IMG/VR virus record: IMGVR_UViG_3300046001_009918
Coordinates: 1 to 27,255 of that record
Strand: one strand, 5' to 3'
Source of the DNA: a virus
Length of the DNA: 27,255 bases
A program made the position numbers and the translations under genes. Below the pieces are notes generated by a model. That model saw only the letters and a program-made list of their open reading frames with translations, searched no databases and had not been told where the DNA came from. Of the stretch, positions 281 through 16,497 are shown piece by piece (positions within the stretch are counted from its first letter, which is position 1; every line of letters starts with the position of its first letter).

Positions 281-457
281 TTAATCCTCAAACAACCCAT
301 CTGAATAATCTGTGATAAAATCAAAGTAATTATCAATAACCACCTCGTGGCTTACTCCAAATAATAATGGTATAAACCACCATAAGAATTGAAACACAAC
401 CAAGATTAAATATGTTAACCACATTATGCCTACAAACATTCTTTTTAATATTTTCAT
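281..457 (-). CDS. 58-aa single-pass membrane protein
   Basis: A short ORF starting MKILKRMFVGIMWLTYLIL and ending in an acidic tail (FDFITDYSDGLFED). Residues about 8-33 are strongly hydrophobic and rich in Trp and Phe, consistent with one membrane span after a short basic N-terminus. It has the window's best start context, AAAAAATAAAAGTTATG, and lies just downstream of a promoter-like cassette (481-511), so it is probably expressed together with the partial membrane gene that follows. No family is recognised. The mixed basic/hydrophobic/acidic layout resembles many small phage membrane proteins, but no function can be assigned. Confidence 0.6.
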   Translation of the reverse strand: MKILKRMFVGIMWLTYLILVVFQFLWWFIPLLFGVSHEVVIDNYFDFITDYSDGLFED

Positions 458-480
458 AACTTTTATTTTTTTATTATATT

Positions 481-511
481 TAAATATACGTTAAATGGCC
501 TGGTAACCCAA
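481..511 (-). promoter_or_regulatory. Bacteroidota-like promoter cassette
   Basis: On the minus strand TTG (509-511) is followed after exactly 20 bases by TATATTTA (481-488), matching the TTG/TAnnTTTG plan of Bacteroidota promoters. The extended upstream part TTTGGGTTACCAGG is nearly identical to that of the copy at 1837-1867. The start codon of the downstream membrane gene is 23 bases beyond the -7-like element, after an A-rich ribosome-binding stretch. Confidence 0.6.
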
Positions 512-516
512 ACTCC

Positions 517-840
517 TTATTTTTTAACTCCATCTATAGCTATTACTTTATAGCTACCACGTTTACCACGTGTTTTACCTTCAGCTTTTTCTATAGCTTC
601 TTTCTCTGAAGTAGCCATCACTTCAATTGTCATACCTTCTGGACCATAATTGGTGTATTCCCAATATCCTACTTCGTATTCTTGTTCTTTTGGAGCACGA
701 AATTTATTCCTACCAGCTGGTTCAGATAAATTAATATCTGCTTGTTTAGCTAGATTTTGCATTGCTTGATCGTAATCAGATTCGTTTAATGCTTTTCTAA
801 CCTCTTCACGGATTATTTGTTTTAGTTCTGATTTTTTCAT
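517..840 (-). CDS. Shared-leader protein 1 (107 aa), candidate capsid-packaged protein
   Basis: Residues 1-20 are the shared leader in the form MKKSELKQIIREEVRKALNE, ending Leu18-Asn19-Glu20 before Ser21. The remaining 87 residues form a small soluble domain. Its end (about residues 55-107) alternates beta-prone and helical segments and holds a basic patch (KTRGKRGSYK). I do not recognise the C-terminal domain. It is the last of the seven leader genes in transcription order and starts 5 bases after the stop of the preceding one, so translation is probably coupled. If the leader is a capsid-targeting peptide cut by a prohead protease, the mature protein would start at Ser21; this is inference. 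Confidence 0.75.
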   Translation of the reverse strand: MKKSELKQIIREEVRKALNESDYDQAMQNLAKQADINLSEPAGRNKFRAPKEQEYEVGYWEYTNYGPEGMTIEVMATSEKEAIEKAEGKTRGKRGSYKVIAIDGVKK

Positions 841-845
841 ATTTT

Positions 846-1247
846 TTATACTAAATTTTCTCTTTTCATCATTTCAAGAGATGTTGAATCTGCTGGGTAG
901 ATGTTCGGGATGCTTTCAAACCAATCTTCATCTAATACAACTATAGAAAAAACATCACCAGTTTCTACATCAACATAATCAAGAGTATGAGACATATTGT
1001 AATTTTCTCTATCTGTGTCTGTATTGTTTCTAGGTGATTGTATTTGAGGGATAAAACGTGCTTTTTTTTCATTTTTTAAACCTCTAAAATATATAAATAC
1101 TAATTCTAAGTTATCTTGATCATCAAAATTTAAATCTTCATATACCTCTTCGTATTCTTTACCATAAGGTTTAAAGTAGTTAAGATTTTCATTTAATACT
1201 TTTCGTATTTCTTCCTTAATGATTTGCTTTAGTTCTGATTTTTTCAT
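846..1247 (-). CDS. Shared-leader protein 2 (133 aa), candidate capsid-packaged protein
   Basis: I place the start at the ATG at 1245-1247 because residues 1-20 (MKKSELKQIIKEEIRKVLNE) then align with six other genes. An in-frame ATG at 1287-1289 would add 14 residues that no relative has. The leader ends Leu-Asn-Glu before Asn21. The C-terminal 113 residues are rich in acidic and aromatic residues (YEEVYEDLNFDDQDNLE, DEDWFESIPNIYP) and look like a compact beta-rich domain. No family is recognised. The upstream neighbour in transcription is the AT-hook protein, which lacks the leader, so the leader array is interrupted at this point. Confidence 0.72.
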   Translation of the reverse strand: MKKSELKQIIKEEIRKVLNENLNYFKPYGKEYEEVYEDLNFDDQDNLELVFIYFRGLKNEKKARFIPQIQSPRNNTDTDRENYNMSHTLDYVDVETGDVFSIVVLDEDWFESIPNIYPADSTSLEMMKRENLV

Positions 1248-1302
1248 ATAGTTGTTCCAGTATTGCTGAGTTTGGTATTCGTCGTTCATTTAATAATACA
1301 TA

Positions 1303-1812
1303 TTAGGATTTTTTAGGACGTCCGCGTCTTCCATTACTATTCTTAGCACGTTCTGCTTTTTCTGCGTCTTTAATGGCTTTCAATGCCGGATCCATTGGTT
1401 TGCGGCCTCTTGAACCACCAGTTGGTACATACACTGCTTTCGTTTTTAATTCGCCATCTTTCTTTGGTCTGCCACGTTTGCCTGGTGTACCAGTAGATAC
1501 CTTTTCTTTAACTACATTTTCTGACTTAGTGAAAAATTTACGCATATTTAACTCAAATGGATGGACAATTACTTCATCTAAGTAATAATTATATGTTCCA
1601 CCTTCGGAATGCACTACTTCGAATCCACCATTAGGAAAATATTTATTTTCACCGGGTTCGTATCTAGCTTTTAATGTAAAATAGGTGTTTGGTTCTTCAA
1701 AATAATTTGCCGGTAAAACACGACACTTTGGAACGAATGTGGTAAATTTTAAATCAACCTCCACGAAATGTTTACGTGGTGGGAATACTGCGTTGTCTGT
1801 AACTACTTTCAT
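1303..1812 (-). CDS. Three-AT-hook DNA-binding protein (169 aa)
   Basis: The N-terminal 95 or so residues form an acidic/aromatic domain of unknown type, followed by a basic tail with three AT-hook-like cores: GKRGRPKKD near residue 111, SRGRKPMD near 134 and GRRGRPKKS at the very C-terminus. AT-hooks (core RGRP flanked by basic residues) insert into the minor groove of AT-rich DNA, which fits this AT-rich genome. Linkers between the hooks are Lys/Ala-rich (ALKAIKDAEKAERAK). The gene has the strongest start context in the window (AAAAATAAAAGTTATG) and its own promoter cassette at 1837-1867, so it may be expressed independently of the flanking leader genes. A role in DNA condensation or transcription is plausible; the N-terminal domain gives no further clue. 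Confidence 0.7.
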   Translation of the reverse strand: MKVVTDNAVFPPRKHFVEVDLKFTTFVPKCRVLPANYFEEPNTYFTLKARYEPGENKYFPNGGFEVVHSEGGTYNYYLDEVIVHPFELNMRKFFTKSENVVKEKVSTGTPGKRGRPKKDGELKTKAVYVPTGGSRGRKPMDPALKAIKDAEKAERAKNSNGRRGRPKKS

Positions 1813-1836
1813 AACTTTTATTTTTCTTGGTTGATA

Positions 1837-1867
1837 TAAATATACGAAAGAGGGCCTGGTAATCCAA
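1837..1867 (-). promoter_or_regulatory. Bacteroidota-like promoter cassette upstream of the AT-hook gene
   Basis: On the minus strand TTG (1865-1867) is followed after 20 bases by TATATTTA (1837-1844). The upstream block CTTGGATTACCAGG matches the copy at 481-511 almost base for base, although the surrounding sequence differs. It sits in a 64-bp gap between two genes, 24 bases before the ATG. Confidence 0.6.
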
Positions 1868-1871
1868 GCCC
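1852..1871 (-). terminator. Hairpin between genes, possible terminator or operator
   Basis: GGGCTTGG and CCAGGCCC pair as an 8-bp stem (one G-U) around an ATTA loop, four bases after the stop codon of the preceding gene. There is no long U-run after it, only TCTTTCG, so intrinsic termination is uncertain. The stem contains the TTGG of the promoter's -33 element, so it could equally be a palindromic protein-binding site. Confidence 0.4.
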
Positions 1872-1876
1872 TTTAA

Positions 1877-2233
1877 TTATTTTTTACGTAAAGCCACAAA
1901 ATCGGCACCTGTTATTTTATCTGCAGGTGGCGCAGCTGATGCTATTTTCTTTTGTTTAGGGGAAAGTGCTTTCTCGTCTAATTGAGAATTGTAATTCTTT
2001 AAAAAATTATATACTTCTTCAACATCGTCTTTTGATGTTGTGATGTGGTCGTTTGCCCAGTCATGTCCATTTGATAGAATTTGATCTACCATCATTGGAT
2101 CCATTTGAAGCATTGCGTCAACTGCATCTTTAATGGTTTTGAGGTTTTGGAAAAACATATAGTTGGATGTGTTTTCCTTCAATACGATTTGAATTTCTTC
2201 GCGAATAATTTGTTGGAGTTGCGATTTTTTCAT
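1877..2233 (-). CDS. Shared-leader protein 3 (118 aa), candidate capsid-packaged protein
   Basis: Residues 1-20 (MKKSQLQQIIREEIQIVLKE) are the most diverged leader but keep the hydrophobic spacing and the Leu18-Lys19-Glu20 end before Asn21. The rest is mostly helical: a Met-rich segment (VDAMLQMDPMMVDQIL, about residues 37-52), a helix around residues 70-85, and a Lys/Ala/Pro-rich tail (SPKQKKIASAAPPADK). It starts 2 bases past the stop of the preceding leader gene. The following gene is the AT-hook protein, behind a hairpin and promoter. No family is recognised for the C-terminal part. Confidence 0.75.
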   Translation of the reverse strand: MKKSQLQQIIREEIQIVLKENTSNYMFFQNLKTIKDAVDAMLQMDPMMVDQILSNGHDWANDHITTSKDDVEEVYNFLKNYNSQLDEKALSPKQKKIASAAPPADKITGADFVALRKK

Positions 2234-2235
2234 GT

Positions 2236-2589
2236 TTAGTCTTTTCTAGAATGTTTTGGATATACTAAATCTTGCTCACTAGAGTCAGTATTTGTATTAA
2301 CTCCTCCTGGATGTTCACGTTCAGCATTCCACCTTCCTATAACAAATTTACCTATAATATACGATATATCATCACCAATTTCACCACCACCATACTTTTC
2401 ATTATAATCAACTAATTCCCAATCTTTTTTGTCTTTACCCCAATAATAATCAAGAGCTTTTTCAAAGTCCTCTTTATTATCATAAAGGTTAAATCCATTA
2501 CTGTACGCTACTGGTTTAGGTGGTTCGTTTTCGTTTAATACTTTGCGTATTTCTTCTTTTATGATTTGTTTTAATTCTGATTTTTTCAT
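2236..2589 (-). CDS. Shared-leader protein 4 (117 aa), candidate capsid-packaged protein
   Basis: The leader is identical at protein level to that of the gene at 846-1247 (MKKSELKQIIKEEIRKVLNE), followed by Asn21. The C-terminal domain is acidic and aromatic, with WGKDKKDWELVDYNEKYGGG around residues 50-70 and a Gly/Ile-rich stretch (GDDISYIIGKFVIGRW) that could be a beta hairpin. It ends in a basic tail (YPKHSRKD). The start is two bases after the upstream stop. Identical leaders on different bodies suggest module exchange. I do not recognise the body. Confidence 0.75.
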   Translation of the reverse strand: MKKSELKQIIKEEIRKVLNENEPPKPVAYSNGFNLYDNKEDFEKALDYYWGKDKKDWELVDYNEKYGGGEIGDDISYIIGKFVIGRWNAEREHPGGVNTNTDSSEQDLVYPKHSRKD

Positions 2590-2591
2590 GT

Positions 2592-2930
2592 TTATTTAGT
2601 CATATATAATTTACACTCAAATCCATGATCATCTAATAAATCATTAACTTGTCTAATATATAGACTTTTATCAGATGTTTTAGGTTCAATACCAATTGAA
2701 AACTTTCCACCACCTATTGAATGGCCATCGCTATCCAATGCTTTAAGTGTGTTTTTTCCAAATGAGTGGGGTCGTAAGCCTTTGTTAGTTCTAACACCAG
2801 TATTAATAAAAGTAATAGCATCTAACAATTCGTCAATATTTGGCCCTATTAACTCAATATTTGATTGTTGTTCTTTTAATACCTTACTAATTTCTTCTTT
2901 GATAATTTGTTTTAATTCTGATTTTTTCAT
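2592..2930 (-). CDS. Shared-leader protein 5 (112 aa), candidate capsid-packaged protein
   Basis: The leader reads MKKSELKQIIKEEISKVLKE before Gln21; its DNA is closest to the copy at 3510-3569. The body (residues 21-112) begins with a helix (NIDELLDAITFINTGVRT), then a Gly/His-rich loop (SDGHSIGGGKFSIGIEP) and a final alpha/beta stretch (SLYIRQVNDLLDDHGFECKLYMTK). It looks like a compact globular domain with no catalytic motif that I can name. Spacing to both neighbours is two bases, so it belongs to a tightly packed cluster with coupled translation. Confidence 0.75.
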   Translation of the reverse strand: MKKSELKQIIKEEISKVLKEQQSNIELIGPNIDELLDAITFINTGVRTNKGLRPHSFGKNTLKALDSDGHSIGGGKFSIGIEPKTSDKSLYIRQVNDLLDDHGFECKLYMTK

Positions 2931-2932
2931 GG

Positions 2933-3220
2933 TTAAATTTCGTTTTCTAGATCTTCTATCTCCATTGATAGCTTTTTTTGTATTAGTTTAAAAGCCTTAG
3001 CTTTGTCAATATTCATTCCTAATTGTTTAGCTGCCTTTATGACAATGTTAAACTTTTCATCACCTGGAGTTATCAAATCAAACACATCTAATTTATTTAA
3101 TAATTTAACTTCTGCTGGTGTTCTTTGGAATAGATGTTTAATCTTATCAACGATAGACTCCTCTTTTAATACTTTTTGAATCTCTTCTTTAATTAGAGAA
3201 TGTAGTTCGGATTTTTTCAT
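2933..3220 (-). CDS. Shared-leader protein 6 (95 aa), candidate capsid-packaged protein
   Basis: The shortest member. The leader is MKKSELHSLIKEEIQKVLKE before Glu21. The 75-residue body is predominantly helical and amphipathic (VDKIKHLFQRTPAEVKLLNKLDVFDLI, then KAAKQLGMNIDKAKAFKLIQ, then LSMEIEDLENEI), alternating basic and acidic segments, possibly a three-helix bundle. The start follows the upstream stop by a single base. No family is recognised. Confidence 0.75.
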   Translation of the reverse strand: MKKSELHSLIKEEIQKVLKEESIVDKIKHLFQRTPAEVKLLNKLDVFDLITPGDEKFNIVIKAAKQLGMNIDKAKAFKLIQKKLSMEIEDLENEI

Positions 3221-3221
3221 A

Positions 3222-3569
3222 TTATTTAAACTTCATTGGAAATCCATTTTCGTCTGTAATGGATAATTTATATTTATCAACTATTATCTCTTTAGCCTTC
3301 ATCACAAACATCTTATTGCTTTTTAAGTCTGCTGATCCAGCCAACATCTCTTTTATGTTGTAGTAGAAGTCAGATAATTGATCTGCTGTTTTAATGTTTG
3401 CAGACTTTCTTCTTTCAGGTCTCATATCATCAACATATCCACCACCTTTAACCATTGGTTCTGCAATATTAACTAGTTCTAATGCAGCAGCTGCAAAGGT
3501 ATTAGTGGCTTCTTTTAAAACCTTACTAATTTCTTCTTTGATGATTTGTTTTAATTCTGAGTGTTTCAT
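3222..3569 (-). CDS. Shared-leader protein 7 (115 aa), candidate capsid-packaged protein
   Basis: First leader gene in transcription order. The leader MKHSELKQIIKEEISKVLKE is followed by Ala21, which gives the best match to the T4 prohead-protease consensus (Leu/Ile-x-Glu then a small residue). The body starts with an Ala-rich helix (ATNTFAAAALELVNIAEPMV), then a Gly-rich turn, a basic segment (RPERRKSANIK) and more helix. It starts only three bases past the stop of the 47-aa basic protein, so both are likely made from one transcript. No family is recognised for the body. Confidence 0.75.
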   Translation of the reverse strand: MKHSELKQIIKEEISKVLKEATNTFAAAALELVNIAEPMVKGGGYVDDMRPERRKSANIKTADQLSDFYYNIKEMLAGSADLKSNKMFVMKAKEIIVDKYKLSITDENGFPMKFK

Positions 3570-3572
3570 GTT

Positions 3573-3716
3573 TTATCTTCCTTGACCTGTGTACGCTTTA
3601 GCGTAATGTTTACCTGTTTTATGTACGCTATTTTTTTTCTTACTATGAACTCCGGGGCGTTTTATTCTTGCCTTTTTTATAACTCCACGTGATGATGTTT
3701 CTTTTGCCTTTGCCAT
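3573..3716 (-). CDS. 47-aa highly basic protein
   Basis: A short ORF from the ATG at 3714-3716 reading MAKAKETSSRGVIKKARIKR and ending KAYTGQGR. Fifteen of 47 residues are Lys or Arg, and there is no hydrophobic core. The central KRPGVHSKKKNS and the final Tyr-x-Gly-Gln-Gly-Arg resemble small basic proteins often seen in large phage genomes and annotated as hypothetical. The composition implies nucleic-acid binding. It directly precedes the leader array, so it may be made with it. Real coding is supported by tight packing against the next gene and by the lack of any other frame in this gap. Confidence 0.65.
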   Translation of the reverse strand: MAKAKETSSRGVIKKARIKRPGVHSKKKNSVHKTGKHYAKAYTGQGR

Positions 3717-3761
3717 TATCTTAATAAATTATTTATATTTTACAATACATATATTAATTTA

Positions 3762-4064
3762 TTAATTGTCAACTAAAGTTTGAATACCAATATTAATTTT
3801 TGCACATTCTTCATATAATTCGCGTTCTTCAAAGTATTTTAAATTTTCCTTCAAAGTATCAACAAAATTAGCTCGTTCTAACGTTATATCAAATATAACA
3901 TTTTCTTCAACGCACTTTACAGAAAGCACGTGTACATTTTTCTTTCGCGTTTTTTTGTTGCTTAAAATGGCACTAACAATCGCTTCTGATATACTGAAAT
4001 GTTTTTTGTTAACCATGTCTTGAAATTCCTCAAGTGTGTTAACTTTAAATTCTTTAGGTTTCAT
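3762..4064 (-). CDS. Unknown 100-aa protein with a UVR-like C-terminal segment
   Basis: The N-terminal half is alpha/beta (LEEFQDMVNKKHFSISEAIVSAILSN, about residues 12-37, then a basic KKTRKKN patch and beta-strands VHVLSVKCV and VIFDITLE). The last 35 residues, with LKENLKYFEERELYEECAKI followed by a Leu-ending helix, have the spacing of a UVR motif, a short helical protein-protein interaction element in UvrB, UvrC and some stress proteins. The resemblance is by pattern only. The start follows a 2-base gap after the upstream small gene, with TTAAAATTAATTATG-type A-rich context. No function can be given. Confidence 0.6.
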   Translation of the reverse strand: MKPKEFKVNTLEEFQDMVNKKHFSISEAIVSAILSNKKTRKKNVHVLSVKCVEENVIFDITLERANFVDTLKENLKYFEERELYEECAKINIGIQTLVDN

Positions 4065-4066
4065 AA

Positions 4067-4222
4067 TTAAAATAATTTAAGGAAGTTTGGATTTATCTTC
4101 TTCTCTTTTAATAGTTGCATTTTTTCATCGTTTTTCAACATTTGAGTGGCTAATCTTTCTAGGTGTTGAGCTTTTTGACCCTCATAGTCTTTAACTAGTT
4201 TATTGTGCTTCTTGTTTTTCAT
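4067..4222 (-). CDS. 51-aa charged helical protein
   Basis: A small ORF starting MKNKKHNKLVKDYEGQKAQH and ending INPNFLKLF. It is almost entirely charged and helix-forming, with heptad-like hydrophobic positions (LVKDYEG, LERLATQML, LLKEKKI), so a short coiled coil is likely. It fills the gap between the HNH-like gene and the 100-aa gene, with a 14-base spacer upstream and 2 bases downstream, the packing expected of a real phage gene. No family is recognised. Confidence 0.55.
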   Translation of the reverse strand: MKNKKHNKLVKDYEGQKAQHLERLATQMLKNDEKMQLLKEKKINPNFLKLF

Positions 4223-4236
4223 CAATTATAAATATT

Positions 4237-4887
4237 CTACAATCTTGAAATAAATTCAGAGCCGTCATTTTCAGGTGTAGGTGGTTGATATAATCCTAAT
4301 TTTTCTAATTGTTGTTTTTGAAAGTCATCTAATTCAAATTCAATTGCGTCAGTAGTTCCATTTGTTGGTGTATGTGTTTCTAACTGATGTAAGTCTTGTT
4401 TATTAAATATATCGCCGTGATTTAAGAAAAAGCAATTATAACATAAAAATCTAATGTTACCTAAGTTATAATGAGCTGGGTTGTTATCCTTAAAATTTAA
4501 TATTATGGGCACCTTATAGTCACTAACTCGTCGTTCACTAAATCCACATATAGCACATTCCTCTTTTAAGAAATTCTCCTCAATCATCCTCTTCTTGATT
4601 TCCTCAGGTTTAAAATGAGTGTGGGATATTCTTCCCTCAATGATGTCTATTGTTTTAAACTTACTATTTTTCTTTGGATTTTTCCCCCATTTAGCAATAC
4701 CTAATCCTTTAGGATTTAAATGTATATCAAATAATGTTCTACCACCTTCAAATTCATTATATCGTTTAGCCCACATTTTATAATGACTATAAGAGCAATT
4801 CATAAATCTAGCAGCTGCCCTGTTAGACTTAGTGTTATGCATAGCTAACAGTATTTGCTCCTTAGTAAGTGGTTTAGGTTTAGGCAT
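4237..4887 (-). CDS. HTH plus degenerate HNH-type zinc-binding protein (216 aa)
   Basis: Residues 8-42 form a helix-turn-helix (KEQILLAMHNTKSNRAAARF, then a recognition helix with YSHYKMWAKRY). Residues 111-152 have the HNH scaffold: C111-x2-C114, a beta hairpin, an Asn/His turn (DNNPAHYNLGNIRFLC) and C149-x2-C152. The catalytic HH of the usual LHHID is replaced by LNFKD, and the His after the last CxxC by Phe, so the fold is probably kept as a zinc-bound DNA-binding element with reduced or no nuclease activity. The C-terminal 50 residues are acidic and Pro-rich. Similar HTH-HNH proteins are spread through T4-like phages. A homing-endonuclease derivative or a regulator are both possible. Confidence 0.65.
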   Translation of the reverse strand: MPKPKPLTKEQILLAMHNTKSNRAAARFMNCSYSHYKMWAKRYNEFEGGRTLFDIHLNPKGLGIAKWGKNPKKNSKFKTIDIIEGRISHTHFKPEEIKKRMIEENFLKEECAICGFSERRVSDYKVPIILNFKDNNPAHYNLGNIRFLCYNCFFLNHGDIFNKQDLHQLETHTPTNGTTDAIEFELDDFQKQQLEKLGLYQPPTPENDGSEFISRL

Positions 4888-4888
4888 A

Positions 4889-5191
4889 CTATGCTAATTC
4901 AGTTGGATCTACTTCGTCATTTTCTACTTCTTCTTCTTCTTCAAATTCGTCTGGATGAGTAATTTCATCTACTCGTTTACCATTTTTTAAACGTTCTATT
5001 TCTTGAAATTTAACATATTCATCATGATCCATGATTATTGTTTCATTGTAAGTATGATCACCTGTTCCTTTTGTAACTGTAATTCCTGCTTTTTGTTTTG
5101 TGTTAGAACAAGCAACACATCTAGTAGCGCTTGGTAAAATCTCTAATCGTTTTGGGTGAATTTCTTCACCACATATGATACATTTTTTCAT
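4889..5191 (-). CDS. DksA/TraR-type zinc-finger protein (100 aa)
   Basis: Near the N-terminus four cysteines have the exact DksA/TraR spacing: C4-x2-C7-x17-C25-x2-C28, with the typical intervening segment (IHPKRLEILPSATRC) and following helix start. DksA/TraR proteins bind RNA polymerase through its secondary channel, but the N-terminal coiled coil that does this in DksA is absent, so only the finger is shared. The C-terminal 30 residues are very acidic (DEFEEEEEVENDEVD). I start at 5191, where AAATAAAAGTT precedes ATG; an in-frame ATG at 5237-5239 would add 16 Lys/Arg-rich residues and overlap the preceding gene. The product may modify host transcription, or simply bind zinc. Confidence 0.65.
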   Translation of the reverse strand: MKKCIICGEEIHPKRLEILPSATRCVACSNTKQKAGITVTKGTGDHTYNETIIMDHDEYVKFQEIERLKNGKRVDEITHPDEFEEEEEVENDEVDPTELA

Positions 5192-5196
5192 AACTT

Positions 5197-5595
5197 TTAT
5201 TTGTTTTTTTCTTCTTCTAATTTTTTTAAAAAATCCCAAAGTTCTTGGGGTGTACTTAAAATAATATTTTGTGGTTCTTTATCATTATTTTGTACTGCTA
5301 ATGATTGCATGTTTCCATCCATATCTACTCTTCCAAATATATACCATAATATAATTTCAGATTTCCATGGACCATACTTTAATAAGATTAAATTCTCCAT
5401 AATACGAAAATATTCTTCTTCATATTCTAAAAAACTAATTTTAAACATATCGTATAGTTTATTTGATCTATCCCAACATTTATATATTATTTCTATAGTT
5501 TCGACAAATAATTCCTCTTCAGAAATGGTTACTTCTTTTTTGGAGCGTTTGTTTAATTTTAACTTTTTACCAAAGTTACTTAGATTTAGTTTCAT
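5197..5595 (-). CDS. Unknown 132-aa protein
   Basis: The N-terminal 20 residues are strongly basic (KKLKLNKRSKK), followed by a long helical region of acidic and aromatic residues (ETIEIIYKCWDRSNKLYDMF, then YEEEYFRIMENLILLKYG) and a terminal helix (TPQELWDFLKKLEEEKNK). It overlaps the upstream gene by 20 bases and ends 5 bases before the DksA-like gene, so the three probably form one unit. I recognise no domain. The Trp/Tyr-rich centre (YGPWKSEIILWYIFGRV) looks like a buried core, not a membrane segment. Confidence 0.6.
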   Translation of the reverse strand: MKLNLSNFGKKLKLNKRSKKEVTISEEELFVETIEIIYKCWDRSNKLYDMFKISFLEYEEEYFRIMENLILLKYGPWKSEIILWYIFGRVDMDGNMQSLAVQNNDKEPQNIILSTPQELWDFLKKLEEEKNK

Positions 5596-5761
5596 AAGAA
5601 TTTATTATTTCAAATAATGTTAAAAATAAATGTTCCTTCATTTGTTTTCGATTTGCAAAATGCGTTAATGCGCTTTCAAAGTCAAATGCTAGAATTTTGT
5701 CGATCGCTTCCTTGTTTGGGTCGTTTTTAGCGTAGTAGTAGTAAGGTTTGTATTCTGGCAT
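5576..5761 (-). CDS. Unknown 61-aa protein
   Basis: A short ORF starting MPEYKPYYYYAKNDPNKEAI and ending EIINSYETKSK. After a Tyr-rich N-terminus there are two amphipathic helices (IDKILAFDFESALTHFA and MKEHLFLTLFEIINSY). The start is preceded by AAAAATTAAAAATC, the A-rich context used elsewhere, and by a weak promoter-like cassette at 5778-5809, so this is probably the first gene of the unit that follows the glycan island. No family is recognised. Confidence 0.55.
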   Translation of the reverse strand: MPEYKPYYYYAKNDPNKEAIDKILAFDFESALTHFANRKQMKEHLFLTLFEIINSYETKSK

Positions 5762-5777
5762 GATTTTTAATTTTTGA

Positions 5778-5809
5778 TAAATATATGAAAGAGAGTTCTA
5801 GAATCCTAA
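5778..5809 (-). promoter_or_regulatory. Weak promoter-like cassette after the glycan island
   Basis: TATATTTA (5778-5785, minus strand) lies 17 bases from the next start codon. Upstream at 21 bases is TTA (5807-5809), not TTG. The region AGGATT...AACTCT...TATATT matches the cassette at 19417-19448 in sequence and spacing, which supports a real element, perhaps of a second subclass. Confidence 0.4.
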
Positions 5810-5810
5810 T

Positions 5811-6569
5811 TTAAAGATATTTTGAGTTATCTAAAGGATTATGTTTTATATAAGAACCCCATTTGTACTTAGCGTATTCATGTCCATTCATTTCAGCTTG
5901 TCTTCTTTTTTCTCCATTTACAGATATAGAAGCAAAGTGATAAAGGTGACATTCGTATGTTCTAAGCATCTTCATTCCTGATAATTGGCATTTAAGAAAG
6001 AAATCCCAATCCGCAACCATTCCTTGCTCATAATTTTCATCCCAACCACCTACTTTTAAGTAATCTATTTTAGACATAAAAATGGGTAGTGTAGAACCAG
6101 TTTCGTCTACTTTATATCCTGAGGTAACATGGTAATCAAACATCCAAAATTTCTCTAAATCAAATGTTTTAGGATCTCTTCCTAAATTCTCAATTATAAA
6201 TTGAGGAAACATACTAGGTGTAGGTTCTATTTGATTTGGAGATACTACTGAGTTTGGTTGATAAGATTCTAGTAATGATAGATCCCAGTTTCGTGGAAAT
6301 ACATTATCATCATTTACTATTAAAACTAAATCATACTTTGCATTATAAACGCCTAAATTAGTACCTCTACATAGTCCTACATTTTCTTTTAAATCCAGTA
6401 TATCAATTGATTTAGCATATTTTTCGAGTACTTCTTTATTGATATCGTAAAAACCATCTACAACTACTATAATTTGGTTTTTTCTATCTTGCTGTCCTTC
6501 GATTGCTGATTTAAGACATAAGTCTAAGGCATCTGGGGATTTATAAGTGGGTATTATTACTGATATCAT
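5811..6569 (-). CDS. Family 2 (GT-A) glycosyltransferase
   Basis: The N-terminus MISVIIPTYKSPDALDLCLK is typical of family 2 glycosyltransferases, followed by the nucleotide-binding Asp (VVVDG, D38) and a metal-binding DDN triplet at residues 87-89 in place of the usual DxD. GGWDENYEQGMVADWDF (about 174-190) matches the acceptor/catalytic-base region of rhamnosyl- and related transferases. Length (252 aa) is normal for a single GT-A domain with no membrane anchor. Its start overlaps the upstream stop by four bases (ATGA), and it is the last gene of the glycan unit. The sugar and acceptor cannot be read from the sequence. Confidence 0.85.
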   Translation of the reverse strand: MISVIIPTYKSPDALDLCLKSAIEGQQDRKNQIIVVVDGFYDINKEVLEKYAKSIDILDLKENVGLCRGTNLGVYNAKYDLVLIVNDDNVFPRNWDLSLLESYQPNSVVSPNQIEPTPSMFPQFIIENLGRDPKTFDLEKFWMFDYHVTSGYKVDETGSTLPIFMSKIDYLKVGGWDENYEQGMVADWDFFLKCQLSGMKMLRTYECHLYHFASISVNGEKRRQAEMNGHEYAKYKWGSYIKHNPLDNSKYL

Positions 6570-7252
6570 ATTTTATTCCAATCCGTTAATGGTGACAAAA
6601 ATGGTACTTCACAATGTGTTGAATAACCAGGTATAGAGGAAATTAAATTAGATCCTTGCTCCCATAAATTAATAAATTTAGTGTGATCATAACCATCGTG
6701 AGTGTGTTCGGGACTACAATATTTCATATGAATATCCCAATGTTTTTTAAAAGTACTCCATTTACCAGCATATGTGTTACAAGTTGATGGAGTAGTTCTC
6801 CAATGGATAGATGGGGTATGTAAAATTTTTGATTGTAATTGTTCATACATTGCTAAAAAATACTTATCAGGGTGATCATATAACGTAACATAATCTACAC
6901 TAAAATTATCAAAAGCCTCTTTTAATATTAATTCCCAGTTAGGAATGTGCATATAATCATCTTCAACTATATATATTATATCATCATTTTGTAAATTTGA
7001 ATTTTTAATTGTTTCAAGACAAAATTTAAAACTAGCAGCGTCACTTCCACCTGTATATTCTATTATATTATCTTCATCATCAAATTTAAAATGGTGATCC
7101 ACTTTATTACCATCAAGTAATATTGTTAAATCAACATCCGCATTCTTTATTGAACGATAACACCTTTCATAAGAAAACCAATTAGGTCTCACTTCTTGTT
7201 TTCTTAGATTAGCTTTATTATAGTGTCTTAAATATACTTTTATTTTACTCAT
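6566..7252 (-). CDS. Putative GT-A-like glycosyltransferase (228 aa)
   Basis: The N-terminal half has the outline of a GT-A fold: MSKIKVYLRHYN, a strand with DLTILLDGN (about residues 41-49), then IIYIVEDDYMH, where EDDY (97-100) sits where a DxD metal site is expected. The C-terminal half is rich in His, Trp and Tyr (TPSIHWRTTPSTCNTYAGKW, CSPEHTHDGYDHTKF), which may form the acceptor site. I do not recognise the exact family. Assignment rests on the motif position and on five other glycosyltransferase-like genes around it. It overlaps both neighbours by 4-8 bases. Confidence 0.6.
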   Translation of the reverse strand: MSKIKVYLRHYNKANLRKQEVRPNWFSYERCYRSIKNADVDLTILLDGNKVDHHFKFDDEDNIIEYTGGSDAASFKFCLETIKNSNLQNDDIIYIVEDDYMHIPNWELILKEAFDNFSVDYVTLYDHPDKYFLAMYEQLQSKILHTPSIHWRTTPSTCNTYAGKWSTFKKHWDIHMKYCSPEHTHDGYDHTKFINLWEQGSNLISSIPGYSTHCEVPFLSPLTDWNKI

Positions 7253-7916
7253 GACATATCCATTTTGGGTTAATTAATGTTTTAATTGGTGATAAATCTT
7301 TATCTAGTGGTTTTCTAGGATATAAATGTAATTGAGTATTTTCTAAATTCAAAGTCTCAATTACAAAAAATAAGGCTGTAGAAACAGTATGTATTTCTTC
7401 TGCTTGTTCCAAAACACCACACCAGTCTAATAATGTAAAACCACTAATATATTCTTGATAGACAATTTTTAAATTTGTTTGTAATTTAATATCTACTTTA
7501 TAATTATACTCAGGTCCAGCGAAATTATTATTAATAAATATAAATTTATCCGTTGAAGATATATTTAGATGTTGTTTTAATTTATTTTCTTTTTCTTGAT
7601 TTCTATTAAATGATAATGTCCTCCATAATTCAGGATCTACATTTAACATATTGTATTTAGCTTGCATACAATCTTCTGCTTGAGGAATGATTGAATGAGC
7701 ATGTTGGAAAGGAACCTCAGTATAATTTGTATAATCTGTTATTTTATATTCTGATTGTTTTATGAATGTGAGATTATCTATTTTAATATATTCTTTTATC
7801 CAATAATAATGATCTACTATAGGCCATATAGCTTCCTCAATATCTAAACGAGAAACTAATGGTTGAAGGAATAATATATCTCCAATACCAAAAGGTTGAT
7901 TAATTATTACTTTCAT
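7245..7916 (-). CDS. GT9-like (heptosyltransferase-type) protein, 223 aa
   Basis: The N-terminus MKVIINQPFGIGDILFLQPL has the Gly-x-Gly-Asp loop (residues 10-13) that opens GT-B enzymes of family 9 (ADP-heptose:LPS heptosyltransferases). The protein is shorter than the usual 320-350 aa. The C-terminal half holds a strand/loop series (FIFINNNFAGPEYNYKVDIK; then EQAEEIHTVSTALFFVIETL) compatible with a reduced second Rossmann domain. I choose the ATG at 7914-7916, which overlaps the preceding stop as ATGA; a TTG two codons upstream would be the alternative. A compact GT-B enzyme is likely, but the missing length makes activity uncertain. Confidence 0.6.
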   Translation of the reverse strand: MKVIINQPFGIGDILFLQPLVSRLDIEEAIWPIVDHYYWIKEYIKIDNLTFIKQSEYKITDYTNYTEVPFQHAHSIIPQAEDCMQAKYNMLNVDPELWRTLSFNRNQEKENKLKQHLNISSTDKFIFINNNFAGPEYNYKVDIKLQTNLKIVYQEYISGFTLLDWCGVLEQAEEIHTVSTALFFVIETLNLENTQLHLYPRKPLDKDLSPIKTLINPKWICHE

Positions 7917-8665
7917 GAACAAATTTTTTCTAGGTAGGGTTTAACATCATCATTAAATTGATTAAAATCTAATTTAATAGGCATTGTACCTCCAGCTTGA
8001 TGTAATACTTTTACTGTTTTATTATTTAGTTTTAATTTACCATTTTCAACATATATTTGTTTCCATGAGTCCCAATGGTTTGTCTCACCCCAAACATTTG
8101 ATAAACCGTAATATAAATCAGTACCAAAATCATCTATTATATGTGAATTATATTTTTCTGAGTGGAATAACATATTTAATGTATCATTTTCTCCAAAAGG
8201 TAGATGGTCTGATAATTCAAAATTTAGGTTAATCCAATCTTCATAAAATTCTTTATTAGATACAGCTACTAATCCAGCATTTATATATTTAGTATAATGA
8301 ACATCTTTACAACTTATTGGATTATCTTTCCCTGCTTTATGATAATCATTAGTATTTCTAACACCAATAACATCATACTTTGAAACATTTTCTAATAATT
8401 CATCAATCCTATCAACTAACATAGAATCAGCATCCATATGAATAATTGTTTTATAATGATCAGTTAACATATAGGATACTATTGGGTGAATATTATTCCA
8501 ATTAATTCTTGGATCCTCATCCATAATTTTATTTAAGGTTTCATCTCCAAATACTATTAAATCTAATTCAGGGTGGAAAAATTGGATGGATTTTACTAAT
8601 TTATGAGCTCCAATACTATCATATAAATGATCGGAAACATGAGTGCAAATAACTATATCTTTCAT
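7913..8665 (-). CDS. Family 8-like (GT-A) glycosyltransferase
   Basis: The strand IIHMDADSMLV (about residues 74-84) carries the DxD metal motif (D78, D80). NAGLVAVSN (129-137) and FGENDTLN (157-164) correspond to the acceptor and catalytic regions of family 8 enzymes, and VLHQAGG (220-226) to their C-terminal metal-binding His motif. At 250 aa this is a complete single-domain enzyme of the galactosyl-/glucosyltransferase or glycogenin type. It starts 12 bases after the upstream methyltransferase and ends with an ATGA overlap. The donor sugar cannot be deduced. Confidence 0.75.
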   Translation of the reverse strand: MKDIVICTHVSDHLYDSIGAHKLVKSIQFFHPELDLIVFGDETLNKIMDEDPRINWNNIHPIVSYMLTDHYKTIIHMDADSMLVDRIDELLENVSKYDVIGVRNTNDYHKAGKDNPISCKDVHYTKYINAGLVAVSNKEFYEDWINLNFELSDHLPFGENDTLNMLFHSEKYNSHIIDDFGTDLYYGLSNVWGETNHWDSWKQIYVENGKLKLNNKTVKVLHQAGGTMPIKLDFNQFNDDVKPYLEKICS

Positions 8666-8677
8666 ATGTAATAAAAT

Positions 8678-9274
8678 TTACGGTGTAATTAAAATAAAAC
8701 CTTGTTCTGTATAATACTCAGTTATAGTCCTATCAGGAAAAAATTGGTATATAAAACTCTCATCTCCTAATTTATAGAGTAACCGATCTTCCCAATTACC
8801 CCCCTCATATGGACCATCCTTATAAATTCTTAAATCATCTAATATAATAACATCATTGAAGTTTGATCTATATTTCATTATTAATTCAAGTTCATCTTTT
8901 AGAGGTATGGCTTGATTCTTATAAAAGTCAATTGATTCTTGATAGGTCATCTTTTTAAAATCAGCAAAAGGAAAATGTGCATCTAAGAAAAACAAAACAT
9001 TATCTTTATCTATTAACTCATTTTGTAATATTTTATTTAAAAAATCAAATGAATTGTTACAACTATAGGTAACTCTATCCATACATCCTAATCGATTAGA
9101 GGCTTGGATTAACATATCAGGGTCTATATCAACTGTATATATATTGTTTAATGAGTTGATATTTAGTGCTACTTGTAGACTATTACCCTCTCCTGTACCT
9201 GTTTCTACATATGTTTCTATACTATAGAAATCACATAATTGTTTTAAATTAATTTTATTTAAAGGATTTCCCAT
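8678..9274 (-). CDS. Class I SAM-dependent methyltransferase (198 aa)
   Basis: YVETGTGEGNSLQVAL (about residues 18-33) is motif I of a Rossmann methyltransferase (E/DxGxGxG), YTVDIDPDML (47-56) provides the acidic residue that binds the SAM ribose, and VLFFLDAHFPF (93-103) is motif IV with an Asp/His pair as in sugar O-methyltransferases of the TylF/macrocin type. Its place between glycosyltransferases and the transketolase half suggests O-methylation of a sugar or glycan. It is separated by three bases from the transketolase gene. Confidence 0.75.
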   Translation of the reverse strand: MGNPLNKINLKQLCDFYSIETYVETGTGEGNSLQVALNINSLNNIYTVDIDPDMLIQASNRLGCMDRVTYSCNNSFDFLNKILQNELIDKDNVLFFLDAHFPFADFKKMTYQESIDFYKNQAIPLKDELELIMKYRSNFNDVIILDDLRIYKDGPYEGGNWEDRLLYKLGDESFIYQFFPDRTITEYYTEQGFILITP

Positions 9275-9277
9275 AAT

Positions 9278-9754
9278 TTATCGTTTTAAGTTTAAATAAC
9301 AAGGTTCAGTACAATTAAATACTTCATCTAATATTTGATTAATATTATCCATTTCAGGCCAGTATGATTTAATATTTTTAAAAGAATTTAACATCACATC
9401 TTCATCTTCCTCAGCCCAATGACTAAAACCATCATGAGAATAATCTTTATCTCTTCCGGATCCAATTAGTTTTATGTTAAGTTGTTCTTTATTAACATAG
9501 TTTCTAATTAATTCAAATGGTCTATATATCAAAAATGGAGTAATAGAATATGCTATAGGTTTTTTTCCTTCATAAGCAGCTCCAACACATAATCCAATCA
9601 TTAGTTGTTCTGAAGCCCCACAGTTGATAAAATTATTAGGGTGGTTGGTTTTAATGCTATCAAACATACCATAACCCAAATCTGCTGTAATTAATAAAAT
9701 AGAAGGATCTTGTTCTATTTTATTTTCTAAATATTTTGCGAATGTTCTTCTCAT
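9278..9754 (-). CDS. Transketolase, C-terminal half (pyrimidine-binding domain only, 158 aa)
   Basis: The sequence follows a transketolase Pyr domain: LLITADLGYGMF (about 20-31), then NCGASEQ (44-50), where E49 matches the catalytic Glu that activates thiamine diphosphate (GxxEQ), and the F-x3-R-x2-ELIR segment (74-84). It stops at residue 158, so the third transketolase domain (dispensable for thiamine-diphosphate catalysis) is absent. The matching N-terminal half is encoded at 10442-11062; a FkbM methyltransferase gene lies between. In bacteria such split transketolases form heterotetramers, and some serve sugar biosynthesis rather than central metabolism. Overlaps the upstream gene by four bases. 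Confidence 0.8.
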   Translation of the reverse strand: MRRTFAKYLENKIEQDPSILLITADLGYGMFDSIKTNHPNNFINCGASEQLMIGLCVGAAYEGKKPIAYSITPFLIYRPFELIRNYVNKEQLNIKLIGSGRDKDYSHDGFSHWAEEDEDVMLNSFKNIKSYWPEMDNINQILDEVFNCTEPCYLNLKR

Positions 9755-10440
9755 TTTCTATAACAATATAATGAATCTTCATTTAAATTTTCAACTTCCC
9801 AACCTAAACTAGAGAATAATGTATTATATTTATCTCTATATTCTCTATAATGGATTCCATTAGTTGTATGGAACTCTATGAAAAATTTCTTAACATATTC
9901 TCCTAAAGTTTTGATATTTTCTTCACTCAAAAATTTTATTTCAGAACCCTCAATATCTATCTTTAAAAAATCAATAACTTTTAAATCAAACATATCTACT
10001 ATATTTTTTAATGTATATGTTTGAACAATTACTTCCATTCCCCCTTTTCCACTCATTAGCGAATTTTCAGTTGTATCGTCTAATATGTAAAAACTAGTTA
10101 ATTCATTTTTATCTGAAATGGCTCCTTGTACACATTCTATATTTTTAAAATCTTTTGTAAAATGTTTTAATATGTTAAAATGTGATGGTGTAGGTTCTAC
10201 TGAAATTATTTTGTCAGCATAAGAGGATAAATGTATTGATACTAAACCTATATTTGCTCCTAAATCAACAATTACTTTATCATCTTCATTTACAAATTTT
10301 TTATAGTAATCTGAATTTGTTTGGTTTAATATTGGTACGGTGCAACATCTTGGGTTATTAAAGTGGTTCTGAAGTACTTCAGATGATATATCTAAATTTA
10401 GAACATCGTTGTTTATAAGTTTTAATTGTTTTGTTTCCAT
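9751..10440 (-). CDS. FkbM-family methyltransferase (229 aa)
   Basis: VIVDLGANIGLVSIHL (about residues 56-71) is the SAM-binding loop, IISVEPTPSHFNIL (78-91) supplies the ribose-binding Glu, and FLKIDIEGSE (residues about 159-168) is the signature of the FkbM family, whose members O-methylate sugars and polyketide oxygens. The C-terminal region (FFIEFHTTNGIHYREYRDKY) is also typical. The gene sits between the two transketolase halves, one base after the upstream stop and with a 4-base overlap downstream, so all three are almost certainly co-translated. The product is probably a methylated sugar on the phage or host glycan. Confidence 0.85.
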   Translation of the reverse strand: METKQLKLINNDVLNLDISSEVLQNHFNNPRCCTVPILNQTNSDYYKKFVNEDDKVIVDLGANIGLVSIHLSSYADKIISVEPTPSHFNILKHFTKDFKNIECVQGAISDKNELTSFYILDDTTENSLMSGKGGMEVIVQTYTLKNIVDMFDLKVIDFLKIDIEGSEIKFLSEENIKTLGEYVKKFFIEFHTTNGIHYREYRDKYNTLFSSLGWEVENLNEDSLYCYRK

Positions 10441-10441
10441 A

Positions 10442-11062
10442 TTATTTAATTATAGTATTAAGGTTAGCTACTTCATAATGAGCGGCTAATGGGGTTTGAG
10501 TTTCAAAAATTTCATTAACATTAGTATAATGAATATTAATTTTTAGTAAAAATGATTTTAATCTTTGAGATAATTTTTCAACATTTACTGGTTTGTAAGC
10601 AGCCCAACCATTTATATTGGCATGTATTTCAATATTTGAAATATCATTTTCATCTATAAATCTTAACGCTTCCCAAATACTCCCTTCTGCACATTCTCCA
10701 TCAGATATTAAACAATATACTTTAATTTTTGGATTAGCTAATGCTATTCCTGTTGCTATAGTAATACCTAATCCTAAACTACCTGTTGATACTTCAATAA
10801 AATTTCCCAAATCACGTTCAGGATGAATTCCATGAGTTTCTAATAAATATTCAGCATCAACCCCATGAAAATGTTCTAATACGACATATAAAGCTAATCC
10901 AGCATGTCCACTTGATAATATAAATTTATCTTCAGATTTTTTATTATTATATATTTCATAAATTATAGGTAGAGCTGTAAAGCAACTTCCCAAATGAGAT
11001 AATTTATGTTTGATACTTATTTCAAGTATTCTTTTATTTAATTTATCTATATTTTTTTTCAT
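10442..11062 (-). CDS. Transketolase, N-terminal half (ThDP-binding domain, 206 aa)
   Basis: The order of motifs is that of the transketolase PP domain: KLSHLGS (20-26, substrate/cofactor His), LSSGHAGLALY (49-59), GSLGLGITIATGIAL (94-108), and the thiamine-diphosphate/metal motif SDGECAEGSIWEA (120-132) followed by IHANINGW (146-153), replacing GDG...NxN. A normal single-chain transketolase is about 650 aa; this 206-aa piece is one complete domain and not a truncated pseudogene, since its partner is retained three genes on. It overlaps the upstream epimerase gene by 20 bases. The likely activity is two-carbon transfer in synthesis of an unusual sugar. Confidence 0.8.
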   Translation of the reverse strand: MKKNIDKLNKRILEISIKHKLSHLGSCFTALPIIYEIYNNKKSEDKFILSSGHAGLALYVVLEHFHGVDAEYLLETHGIHPERDLGNFIEVSTGSLGLGITIATGIALANPKIKVYCLISDGECAEGSIWEALRFIDENDISNIEIHANINGWAAYKPVNVEKLSQRLKSFLLKINIHYTNVNEIFETQTPLAAHYEVANLNTIIK

Positions 11063-11876
11063 AAATTTCTTTTAAACCAGTTTCTAAGTTATATTTTGGA
11101 TTGAATTTATATTTTGATTTAGCATAAGTTATATCAGCTACCCAATTTAAACCATCGTATTTATTAAATATATTATCTATTTTTTCATATTTCAAATTTA
11201 AATTAAATATTTTTTTTATAATATGAAAAACTTCTAAATTTGAATATTGAACTCCACCCCCAAAATGAACTATATCTCCCAACATAATTTCTTTTTCGGA
11301 ATAAAGTACTGAAAATATACCATCAATAAAATCATCTATATGGATAAAATCATGTACCCCTAAACTTATTTTAGATATATTATTATTTTTAAAATTTCTA
11401 AATAAAGTAGGTATTAATCTATTACTAGGTTCATTTATTCCATATACACTAAATGGTCTAACTATAGCTATAGGTTTATTATATTCTCTAGCAAATCCTT
11501 GACATAATAATGAGCTGGCTCCTTTTGTCCCCTCATACATTGTTCTAGGTTTTAATGATTCTTTTTCAGACATAGGTATATTAGTTTCCCCATATTCAGA
11601 AGATGATCCTAAACTAACAAAAGCTTTATAATTAATATCCTTTGTAACATTTAAAAGCCAATTAGTCATTAATATGTTTGATTCAAATGTTTTTGAAGGA
11701 TCTTTAATTTCAGCTGCACAATGAATTATATAATCTGGGTTGAAATTTTTGATATGATTAGATAATTCTAAAGAAGTTTGCCAATTTCTTCCTATTAGAA
11801 GTATGGTCTCACCAGATAATCTTTCTATTAAAGATTTCCCAATAAATCCAGTACCTCCAGTTATTAAATATTTCAT
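11043..11876 (-). CDS. NAD-dependent sugar epimerase/dehydratase (extended SDR, 277 aa)
   Basis: ITGGTGFIG (5-13) is the Rossmann GxxGxxG loop. HCAAEIKDP (52-60) lies where NAD is contacted, SLGSSSEYGE (88-97) contains the catalytic Ser, and Y114-x3-K118 (MYEGTKGAS) is the catalytic pair. RPFSVYG and the downstream HVHIDD-like FIHIDDFIDG are standard for nucleotide-sugar epimerases and dehydratases. The length fits the short members of the extended SDR family. Together with the split transketolase and methyltransferases it argues that the island makes a modified nucleotide sugar rather than only transferring host ones. The exact substrate (UDP-, GDP- or CDP-sugar) is not readable. Confidence 0.85.
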   Translation of the reverse strand: MKYLITGGTGFIGKSLIERLSGETILLIGRNWQTSLELSNHIKNFNPDYIIHCAAEIKDPSKTFESNILMTNWLLNVTKDINYKAFVSLGSSSEYGETNIPMSEKESLKPRTMYEGTKGASSLLCQGFAREYNKPIAIVRPFSVYGINEPSNRLIPTLFRNFKNNNISKISLGVHDFIHIDDFIDGIFSVLYSEKEIMLGDIVHFGGGVQYSNLEVFHIIKKIFNLNLKYEKIDNIFNKYDGLNWVADITYAKSKYKFNPKYNLETGLKEIYEKKYR

Positions 11877-12364
11877 TTTTTCTCTCCCATTACCATAAAT
11901 GCATTATTTAGATCTACTCCTGATTTGAAAATATTAATATATCCTCTGTCTTCCATGTAATCAGCAATTATTTCAGATGTAAAAATATTTAAGTGTTTTC
12001 TATTATTCCAAGGTCTCCAATATGCTTGTGAGTAATCTGGGAGGTAGAGAAATAATGTACCTCCTTTTTTAAGTTTGGAAGTCCAATAATCTAATACTTC
12101 CACCCAATCATATACATGTTCTAAACAATGTGAACTAAATATATAGTCTAACTTTTCATATGGAAAATCTAATGCTGTATATCCATTAAGATCAGGGTCA
12201 ACTGTTTGAGCTCCGGGGAATGCCCAGTCTTCTTTCATACAACCTACATCAACACCAAATCCTTTACATACATGTTTAGCAAATGGGATTGCAAATTGAG
12301 CAGCATATCCTTCTTCTTGGAATTTAGGATACACATTTGATTTATATTCTATTGTTTTTATCAT
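11873..12364 (-). CDS. Methyltransf_11-type SAM methyltransferase (163 aa)
   Basis: GFGVDVGCMKEDW (about 35-47) is a variant SAM-binding loop, TVDPDL (54-59) the acidic motif, and SSHCLEHVYDWVEVLDYW (78-95) with LKKGGTLFLYLPDY (98-111) are typical of Methyltransf_11 enzymes, where CLEHV is a common signature. At 163 aa it is a compact single domain. It overlaps both neighbours by four bases. A role in modifying the glycan or its precursor is inferred from context. Confidence 0.8.
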   Translation of the reverse strand: MIKTIEYKSNVYPKFQEEGYAAQFAIPFAKHVCKGFGVDVGCMKEDWAFPGAQTVDPDLNGYTALDFPYEKLDYIFSSHCLEHVYDWVEVLDYWTSKLKKGGTLFLYLPDYSQAYWRPWNNRKHLNIFTSEIIADYMEDRGYINIFKSGVDLNNAFMVMGEKK

Positions 12365-13014
12365 ATGTTTTCGTAAAATTTATTTTGTTTTTCTTGTCTT
12401 GTTATTTCTTTTGGATGATATAAACTCCAAACCTCTTCTGCTGGTAGTGGGGAGAATGTTTTAGTACCCTTAATTCGCTCATGTACTTTACCTTCCCATC
12501 TAATTTCAGGAATATTTTTGTAAATACGTGTTTGATAATCAGGAAAATTAACCCATCCTTTATCACTTACATTCCATCCCCATTTAGCAATATGTTCAGG
12601 TGTAAGACCTTCTACTGTATTTACTCTAGGAACTAAGAACATATCCACTTCTGGATTTTGTTCTAACATTAATGGTAAAAGTTTAACTAAATCGATGTGA
12701 GGTATTTCATCAGCATCTATAGAGAATATATAATCTCCTGTTGCTTGCTTAAATAATTCATTTTTAAACGTAGCAAAATCATTGTTTAATGGAAATTGAT
12801 AACATTTACTGTTTGTAATAGCATCTATTAATTCCTCTTTATGATTAAAACCAGTAAATAAATTACAAACTTCATGTACTTCATTTGTGGTGTTAACACT
12901 ATCTAACTGAATTATTACCTCGTCTTCTTTACGAATATTTAATTTTAAGAAACGAAGTAATTTTTCAAGTTCAATATGTTCATTACAAGCAGTAATACAA
13001 TAAGATATTTTCAT
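12361..13014 (-). CDS. Family 2 glycosyltransferase, WaaE/KdtX-like (217 aa)
   Basis: MKISYCITACNEHIELEKLL starts a GT-A domain. IFSIDADEIPHID (97-108) contains the DxD motif extended to DADE, and DYQTRIYKN...WEGKVHE (159-179) is the conserved segment of WaaE/KdtX-like LPS-core glucosyltransferases. The C-terminus is shorter than the usual 250-260 aa. It is the first gene of a nine-overlap, translationally coupled series reaching to 5811, and a promoter cassette (13019-13049) ends only four bases before its ATG. Confidence 0.8.
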   Translation of the reverse strand: MKISYCITACNEHIELEKLLRFLKLNIRKEDEVIIQLDSVNTTNEVHEVCNLFTGFNHKEELIDAITNSKCYQFPLNNDFATFKNELFKQATGDYIFSIDADEIPHIDLVKLLPLMLEQNPEVDMFLVPRVNTVEGLTPEHIAKWGWNVSDKGWVNFPDYQTRIYKNIPEIRWEGKVHERIKGTKTFSPLPAEEVWSLYHPKEITRQEKQNKFYENI

Positions 13015-13018
13015 ACTG

Positions 13019-13049
13019 TAAATATAAAAAATTAATTTTTATAATCCAA
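13019..13049 (-). promoter_or_regulatory. Promoter cassette of the main glycan unit
   Basis: On the minus strand TTG (13047-13049) is followed after 20 bases by TATATTTA (13019-13026), with the extended TTTGGATTA block. It lies in the 36-bp gap before the 217-aa glycosyltransferase. The ATG is four bases past the element, so a transcript from here would be leaderless or nearly so. Confidence 0.5.
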
Positions 13050-13050
13050 A

Positions 13051-13509: not shown

Positions 13510-13510
13510 T

Positions 13511-14812: not shown

Positions 14813-14813
14813 T

Positions 14814-16262: not shown

Positions 16263-16294
16263 ATAACTTGTTTTTGGTTTGTTTATTTATTTGT

Positions 16295-16491: not shown

Positions 16492-16497
16492 CATATA

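Follow-up and report, generated by a model that had tools for sequence, protein, structure and literature searches.

A shared 20-residue leader on unrelated small proteins of a T4-like phage as a candidate capsid-targeting propeptide

In phage T4, capsid-targeting sequences (CTSs) of 10–19 residues direct proteins to the core and are then removed (PMC9026906, PMC3012670). For the internal protein IPIII, the first ten residues are enough for packaging, with positions 4 and 7 serving targeting and positions 8 and 10 serving processing; Asp10 blocks processing of the CTS and leaves targeting intact, and a leader fusion carries a foreign protein into the head (PMC9026906). T-even internal proteins more generally have been described as varied bodies that share a conserved CTS (PMC3012670), and T4 Alt is a packaged ADP-ribosyltransferase (ART) whose leader is cut at ITE-6 (PMC5694885). 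Here we analyzed a comparable arrangement in the virus record IMGVR_UViG_3300046001_009918, of which the stretch studied (27,255 bases, hereafter “the window”) carries seven genes that open with one 20-residue leader, termed class A below. From the sequence evidence, we assign a probability of about 0.83 to this leader being a capsid-targeting propeptide, i.e., one that would dock the protein, be cut off by a gp21-type protease, and leave the body packaged and probably injected.

The window, a fragment of a T4-like phage, includes GroEL/GroES and a replication module of the T4 type; its source is an uncultured phage, probably of a Bacteroidetes host. The seven genes lie on the minus strand between 517 and 3569, with leader consensus MKKSELKQIIKEEIxKVLxE, and a degenerate form of this pattern matched exactly seven times in the window and never in 100 dinucleotide shuffles. 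None of the seven copies departs from L18 or E20, while residues 15–17 deviate in two (RKAL, QIVL). Behind the leader, bodies of 87, 113, 98, 97, 92, 75, and 95 residues are mutually dissimilar (best BLASTP E = 1.8). The initial annotation, which described seven clustered genes with a common leader ending in L18-x-E20 and small bodies of 75–113 residues that diverge completely, thus holds for all seven, with small corrections for one start codon, one leaderless gene inside the cluster, and the two deviant copies. The features are as follows.

517..840, minus strand: leader-bearing gene, body SDYDQAMQNL..., homologues in L002 and G002
781..840, minus strand: leader of gene 517–840, MKKSELKQIIREEVRKALNE, followed by a body of 87 residues
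846..1247, minus strand: leader-bearing gene, body NLNYFKPYGK...
1188..1247, minus strand: leader of gene 846–1247, MKKSELKQIIKEEIRKVLNE, followed by a body of 113 residues
1303..1812, minus strand: leaderless gene inside the cluster, basic KRGRPKK/GRRGRPKK (GRP) C-terminus, conserved in L002 and L052
1877..2233, minus strand: leader-bearing gene, body NTSNYMFFQNLKTI..., C-terminal KQKKIASAAPPADKITGADFVALRKK
2174..2233, minus strand: leader of gene 1877–2233, MKKSQLQQIIREEIQIVLKE, followed by a body of 98 residues
2236..2589, minus strand: leader-bearing gene, body NEPPKPVAYS...
2530..2589, minus strand: leader of gene 2236–2589, MKKSELKQIIKEEIRKVLNE, followed by a body of 97 residues
2592..2930, minus strand: leader-bearing gene, body QQSNIELIGP...
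2871..2930, minus strand: leader of gene 2592–2930, MKKSELKQIIKEEISKVLKE, followed by a body of 92 residues
2933..3220, minus strand: leader-bearing gene, body ESIVDKIKHL...
3161..3220, minus strand: leader of gene 2933–3220, MKKSELHSLIKEEIQKVLKE, followed by a body of 75 residues
3222..3569, minus strand: leader-bearing gene, body ATNTFAAAALELVN..., conserved in L052
3510..3569, minus strand: leader of gene 3222–3569, MKHSELKQIIKEEISKVLKE, followed by a body of 95 residues

A simple open reading frame caller starts gene 846–1247 at 1289; since the longer frame places MNDEYQTQQYWNNY ahead of the leader, 1247 is the better start. In the related loci L002 and L052, the place of this gene keeps the upstream MNDEYQT stretch and the leader with a different body (NEPPEPVAYN); DNA similarity ends where the leader ends, and the body of gene 2236–2589 sits elsewhere within the cluster (91–93% DNA identity).

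The strongest evidence for capsid targeting, at the level of sequence, is the exchange of leaders in front of related bodies. Besides class A, relatives use a 10-residue class B leader (MIKLIDLLKE) and a class C leader of about 16–24 residues starting like MENFDLKKYLAENKLLKE, and all three classes usually end in [L/I]xE. Between two members of a kinase-like family (L051 and L172, 74% identity), the leader changes from 20 to 10 residues with the junction unchanged; another family (L256 versus L108 and L216) likewise switches from a 20- to a 10-residue leader at one junction, and relatives of window gene 1877–2233 begin MIKLASLLKE.... In an ART-like family (L353 and relatives, GKQVGxLYHFT...), only some phages have the class A leader, others carrying MIKLIDLLNE, MIKLLDILRE, MENKNLKLIDLLNE, and further variants, and the body is directly preceded by [L/I]xE in 10 of the 10 homologues inspected. 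Across 1,533 non-class-A genes of related genomes, [L/I]xE was overrepresented at exactly residue 10 (z 7.9), and among 94 non-redundant proteins starting M[I/V]xLxx[L/I/V]L..., 78 have E10. One cluster (G013:C1:33184-36994) interleaves genes with class A and class B leaders. The cultured Flavobacterium phage immuto (laboratory host LMO8) also has leader-like genes, beginning MIKLIDLLTE at 24569 and MISIYNILKE at 103366, with class C genes at 1803, 117631, and 118632 and a further one in the head locus at 125241.

The position at which class A leaders end was evaluated in a non-redundant sample of 132 proteins selected by residues 1–13 only; leader sets from scans requiring LxE were not used as a sample for this statistic. 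In 53% of them [L/I]xE closed the leader at residue 20, in another 13% at residue 17, and in ~1% at later positions. The 53% may be somewhat too high, because the loci of some sampled proteins were recruited with an LxE-requiring pattern; neither the coupling nor the leader-exchange evidence depends on it. Coupling was tight between L18 and E20 (odds ratio 30, p = 3e-14) and, among the remaining leaders, between L15 and E17 (odds ratio 128, p = 1e-9). After the site, hydrophobic residues were depleted (11/70 versus 32%, p = 0.002). The abrupt loss of similarity noticed at residue 21 reappears as a fall in information from 3.0 to 0.6 bits (in a set partly recruited on LxE), and leaders with the site at residue 17 diverge from residue 18 on. 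With the site at 20 or 17 and divergence right after it, [L/I]xE indicates where the leader stops, at any length.

The main rival explanation retains the capsid address and drops the cut: the leader would be a helix docking onto the scaffold and entering the head, usually uncleaved, and L18 and E20 would merely end the helix. L18 does suit the hydrophobic face of such a helix, the AlphaFold model of the ART-like protein L353 (predicted local distance difference test score, pLDDT, 74) has the leader as one helix spanning residues 3–20, certain head proteins of giant phages remain unprocessed (PMC5694885), and about one-quarter of class A leaders have no [L/I]xE between residues 17 and 22. Against it stand both couplings, L18–E20 and L15–E17 in the shorter leaders, and the recurrence of [L/I]xE at an identical body junction behind unrelated leaders, and we consider docking without cleavage unlikely. 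The leaders lacking a site are not fatal to a cleaved propeptide, because the uncleavable T4 CTS (Asp10) still targets (PMC9026906): a constrained helix (residues 2–14) with a separable [L/I]xE fits the T4 division of labor, so that leaders without the site can still target.

Between window copies, the leader displayed pS (synonymous divergence) 0.63 and pN (non-synonymous divergence) 0.15, i.e., pN/pS 0.23 with synonymous sites near saturation, indicating selection on the peptide and an old age of the copies. A recent expansion of paralogues was rejected for two reasons: the bodies are unrelated and synonymous sites are saturated. The tract could in principle act as nucleic acid, as a regulatory leader or recombination tag translated by chance, and the boundary of body exchange does coincide with the leader tract; the low pN/pS at near-saturated synonymous sites and the lack of conserved upstream DNA common to the seven window genes both speak against this, which makes it very improbable. 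The leader also has no uninterrupted hydrophobic core of the kind tested for in secretory signal peptides; it is a charged amphipathic helix.

A gp21-type protease was expected in the genome and was found in relatives, not in the window, which is a 27 kb fragment. Peptidase_S77 (PF03420, gp21) was detected in two sets of related contigs, 9 of 20 in the first and 12 of 16 in the second (21/36 overall), including, in the second set, all seven leader-bearing contigs ≥140 kb; by a hand estimate from contig sizes and ~165 kb genomes, a universal gp21 would be expected in ~20 of 36. All nine tested leader-bearing contigs without gp21 also lack gp23, and two contigs without gp21 (G001 and G009) end within the head locus. 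The refuting outcome named in the initial annotation, a complete genome without a gp21-type protease, was thus not seen as far as the relatives allow a judgement, all seven leader-bearing contigs of this size having gp21. The relatives' protease, one copy of which lies at L181:7089-7688, matches T4 gp21 (5jbl, E = 6.5e-13) and retains two motifs of the T4 enzyme, GEL(D/N)HP and (V/I)SSRG. Its neighbors follow the order terminase, gp20, core genes, gp21, gp22 (named by position and composition only), and gp23, parallel to the T4 head locus, which has gp67 and gp68 between gp20 and gp21. The gp21 genes of two leader-bearing contigs (G015:C1:40193-40621 and G034:C1:35552-35974) have three in-frame TGA codons each, which suggests TGA recoding in these phages.

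In contig G011, a gene of the prohead core locus between gp20 and gp21 itself begins with a class A leader, followed by MSTTG. Its counterparts read KLKE/MSATG, ALRE/MSATG, and SLGE/ESATG, and the major capsid protein (MCP) reads VVE/ASSTG or IRE/ATATG. Given these matching sites, leader-bearing and head proteins share one candidate site type, although this alignment is a reading of sequences and the cleavage a candidate one. The core-locus bearer, the LxE/SATG pattern common to the MCP and the core protein, and the presence of gp21 in every near-complete bearer are difficult to accommodate if the leader addresses a non-capsid place, such as a host complex, the membrane, the tail, or the baseplate, with LxE cut by another protease or left uncut. 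Such an address would better suit phage immuto, where a gene adjoining baseplate genes has a weaker leader-like N-terminus, as well as two leader-bearing proteins (L267:107-1021 and L241:8224-9180) with an internal hydrophobic stretch, one of them lipobox-like (LVSC), as if destined for the cell envelope. On balance we regard a non-capsid address as quite improbable.

Beyond the immuto gene and the leaders without a site, several observations weigh against the capsid-targeting propeptide. The window itself contains neither the head locus nor gp21, and the cultured relative Mel-JY01 has gp21 and no class A leader, so that the protease does not imply the leader. The bodies of L218 and L366 are joined without [L/I]xE, the model of the kinase-like protein reaches a pLDDT of only 41, and no virion proteomics of any leader bearer was found. 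Nevertheless, the capsid-targeting interpretation proposed in the initial annotation is strongly supported by leader exchange, the core-locus bearer, the ART fold, and gp21 in relatives, with virion location and cleavage following by inference. Specifically, the amphipathic helix (residues about 3–18) would dock a new protein onto the prohead scaffold core, and the co-encoded gp21-type S77 protease would cut after L18-x-E20; the released body of 75–113 residues would remain inside the head for packaging alongside the DNA, probably to be injected into the host. Bodies would be exchangeable cassettes behind interchangeable leaders of classes A, B, and C, the leader-coding tract being the boundary where different bodies join. 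Whether this amounts to a modular delivery system, with at least three tag classes, hundreds of exchangeable effectors (ART-, kinase-, and zeta-toxin-like), one prohead protease, and tag DNA serving as a recombination tract, is a more tentative matter, to which we give slightly less than an even chance.

Further leader-bearing genes, as the initial annotation proposed to look for, are numerous. Three pattern scans of public viral contigs (the resulting class A counts are lower bounds) recovered, with all loci gathered, a strong class A leader in at least 318 distinct proteins; at least 311 are complete and fall into at least 237 body families, with 192 singletons among the matches listed. A position-specific score sets class A leaders apart from shuffled N-termini, and loci recruited through GroEL rather than the leader had at least one class A leader in 13 of 80 cases. 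As controls, crAss001 and Flavobacterium phage 11b, both phages of Bacteroidetes but with other types of head, had no class A leader; the annotation of the latter lists a prohead protease of another type. A tblastn search with the leader alone gave no match in cultured phages, an uninformative result in that the low-complexity filter may mask the leader, and a full-text search of open-licence literature returned no mention of the leader string.

Compared with T4 IPI–IPIII, the class A set shares a short N-terminal leader (within 10–20 residues) on unrelated small bodies, an [L/I]xE-type gp21 site, and gp21 itself in the genomes of relatives. The T4 IPII/IPIII leader is MKTYQEFIAE, whereas class A has 20 residues of a different sequence, hundreds of bodies, and at least three interchangeable leader classes; as suspected, the set is much larger than in T4, with up to 12 class A genes on one 44.6 kb contig (G013). 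Class A proteins, for their part, are putative virion components. The N-terminus of T4 gp24, MAKINELLRE, resembles class B in length and pattern, although gp24 is a shell vertex protein and not an effector. In phiKZ and SPN3US, a distant gp21 relative removes propeptides from many internal head proteins, including ejection proteins, and near-identical N-termini precede the diverged paralogues gp53 and gp54; these giant-phage propeptides are mostly >100 residues and cut at A/S/G-x-E, in contrast to [L/I]xE at 17–20 in class A. The kind is thus already known, namely T-even internal proteins behind a conserved CTS (PMC3012670), here in a much enlarged and modular version. What is new is the lineage and the sequence of the leader, how many bodies it precedes, the use of several leaders that can replace one another, and a swap in nature that indicates the cut site.

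Next, we considered what the bodies might be. Among 132 bodies scanned, matches were limited to 5 Pfam and 7 PHROG families, and nearly all bodies have no known domain. The seven window bodies had no credible match to PHROGs or Pfam, including the Pfam ART families, and an anti-host function for them is inferred. An MRS2-like match of the protein encoded at 1877–2233 (E = 9e-5, below the cut-off) was set aside as coiled-helix similarity. The L353 family matched Tox-ART-HYD1 weakly (E = 5e-4, below the curated cut-off), and the best Foldseek hits of the L353 model were Tpt1/KptA and DarT (probability 1.00, best E only 1.2e-3). L353 therefore combines an ART-like fold with a short leader ending in [L/I]xE, as T4 Alt does with its gp21-type site; the nearest folds here are Tpt1/KptA and DarT, and the likeness to Alt is one of fold and leader. 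L038 combines a PARP-like stretch (GKGVYF) with leucine-rich repeats, and “kinase-like” refers to motifs read in the sequence (a Gly-rich start, DxNxG...KxxD). A zeta-toxin domain (E = 7.6e-14) follows the class B leader MIKLTDLLKE in L154:2918-3718, and a relative in Pelagibacter phage HTVC008M starts MIPFILKE.

If correct, this interpretation would allow a sequence tag alone to pick out proteins injected by uncultured phages as infection starts, making delivered proteins of the at least 237 body families found here, nearly all without a known domain. Effectors and counter-defence proteins could then be annotated by rule, and the leaders would be candidate addresses with which to load cargo into phage heads. 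A long-standing proposal, in which the internal proteins of T-even phages form an arsenal that is exchanged rapidly behind one tag, could now be tested at scale.

A scan of the genome collection with one window protein matched its short C-terminal motif only. The C-terminal KQKKIASAAPPADKITGADFVALRKK of gene 1877–2233 also recurs in unrelated phages (L383, L384, and L385) as a short open reading frame close to terminase/portal genes or other phage structural genes. Adjoining the leader cluster, window positions 3573–3716 encode a very basic protein of 47 residues (KKARIKRPGVHSKKKNS...), and positions 5811–16262 hold a long run of genes that read as glycosyltransferase-, methyltransferase-, and sugar-metabolism-like. 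Finally, window positions 446–17801 are 99.86% identical to G016 over 17.4 kb, beyond which identity drops to 76–83%, a sharp mosaic boundary between closely related phages.

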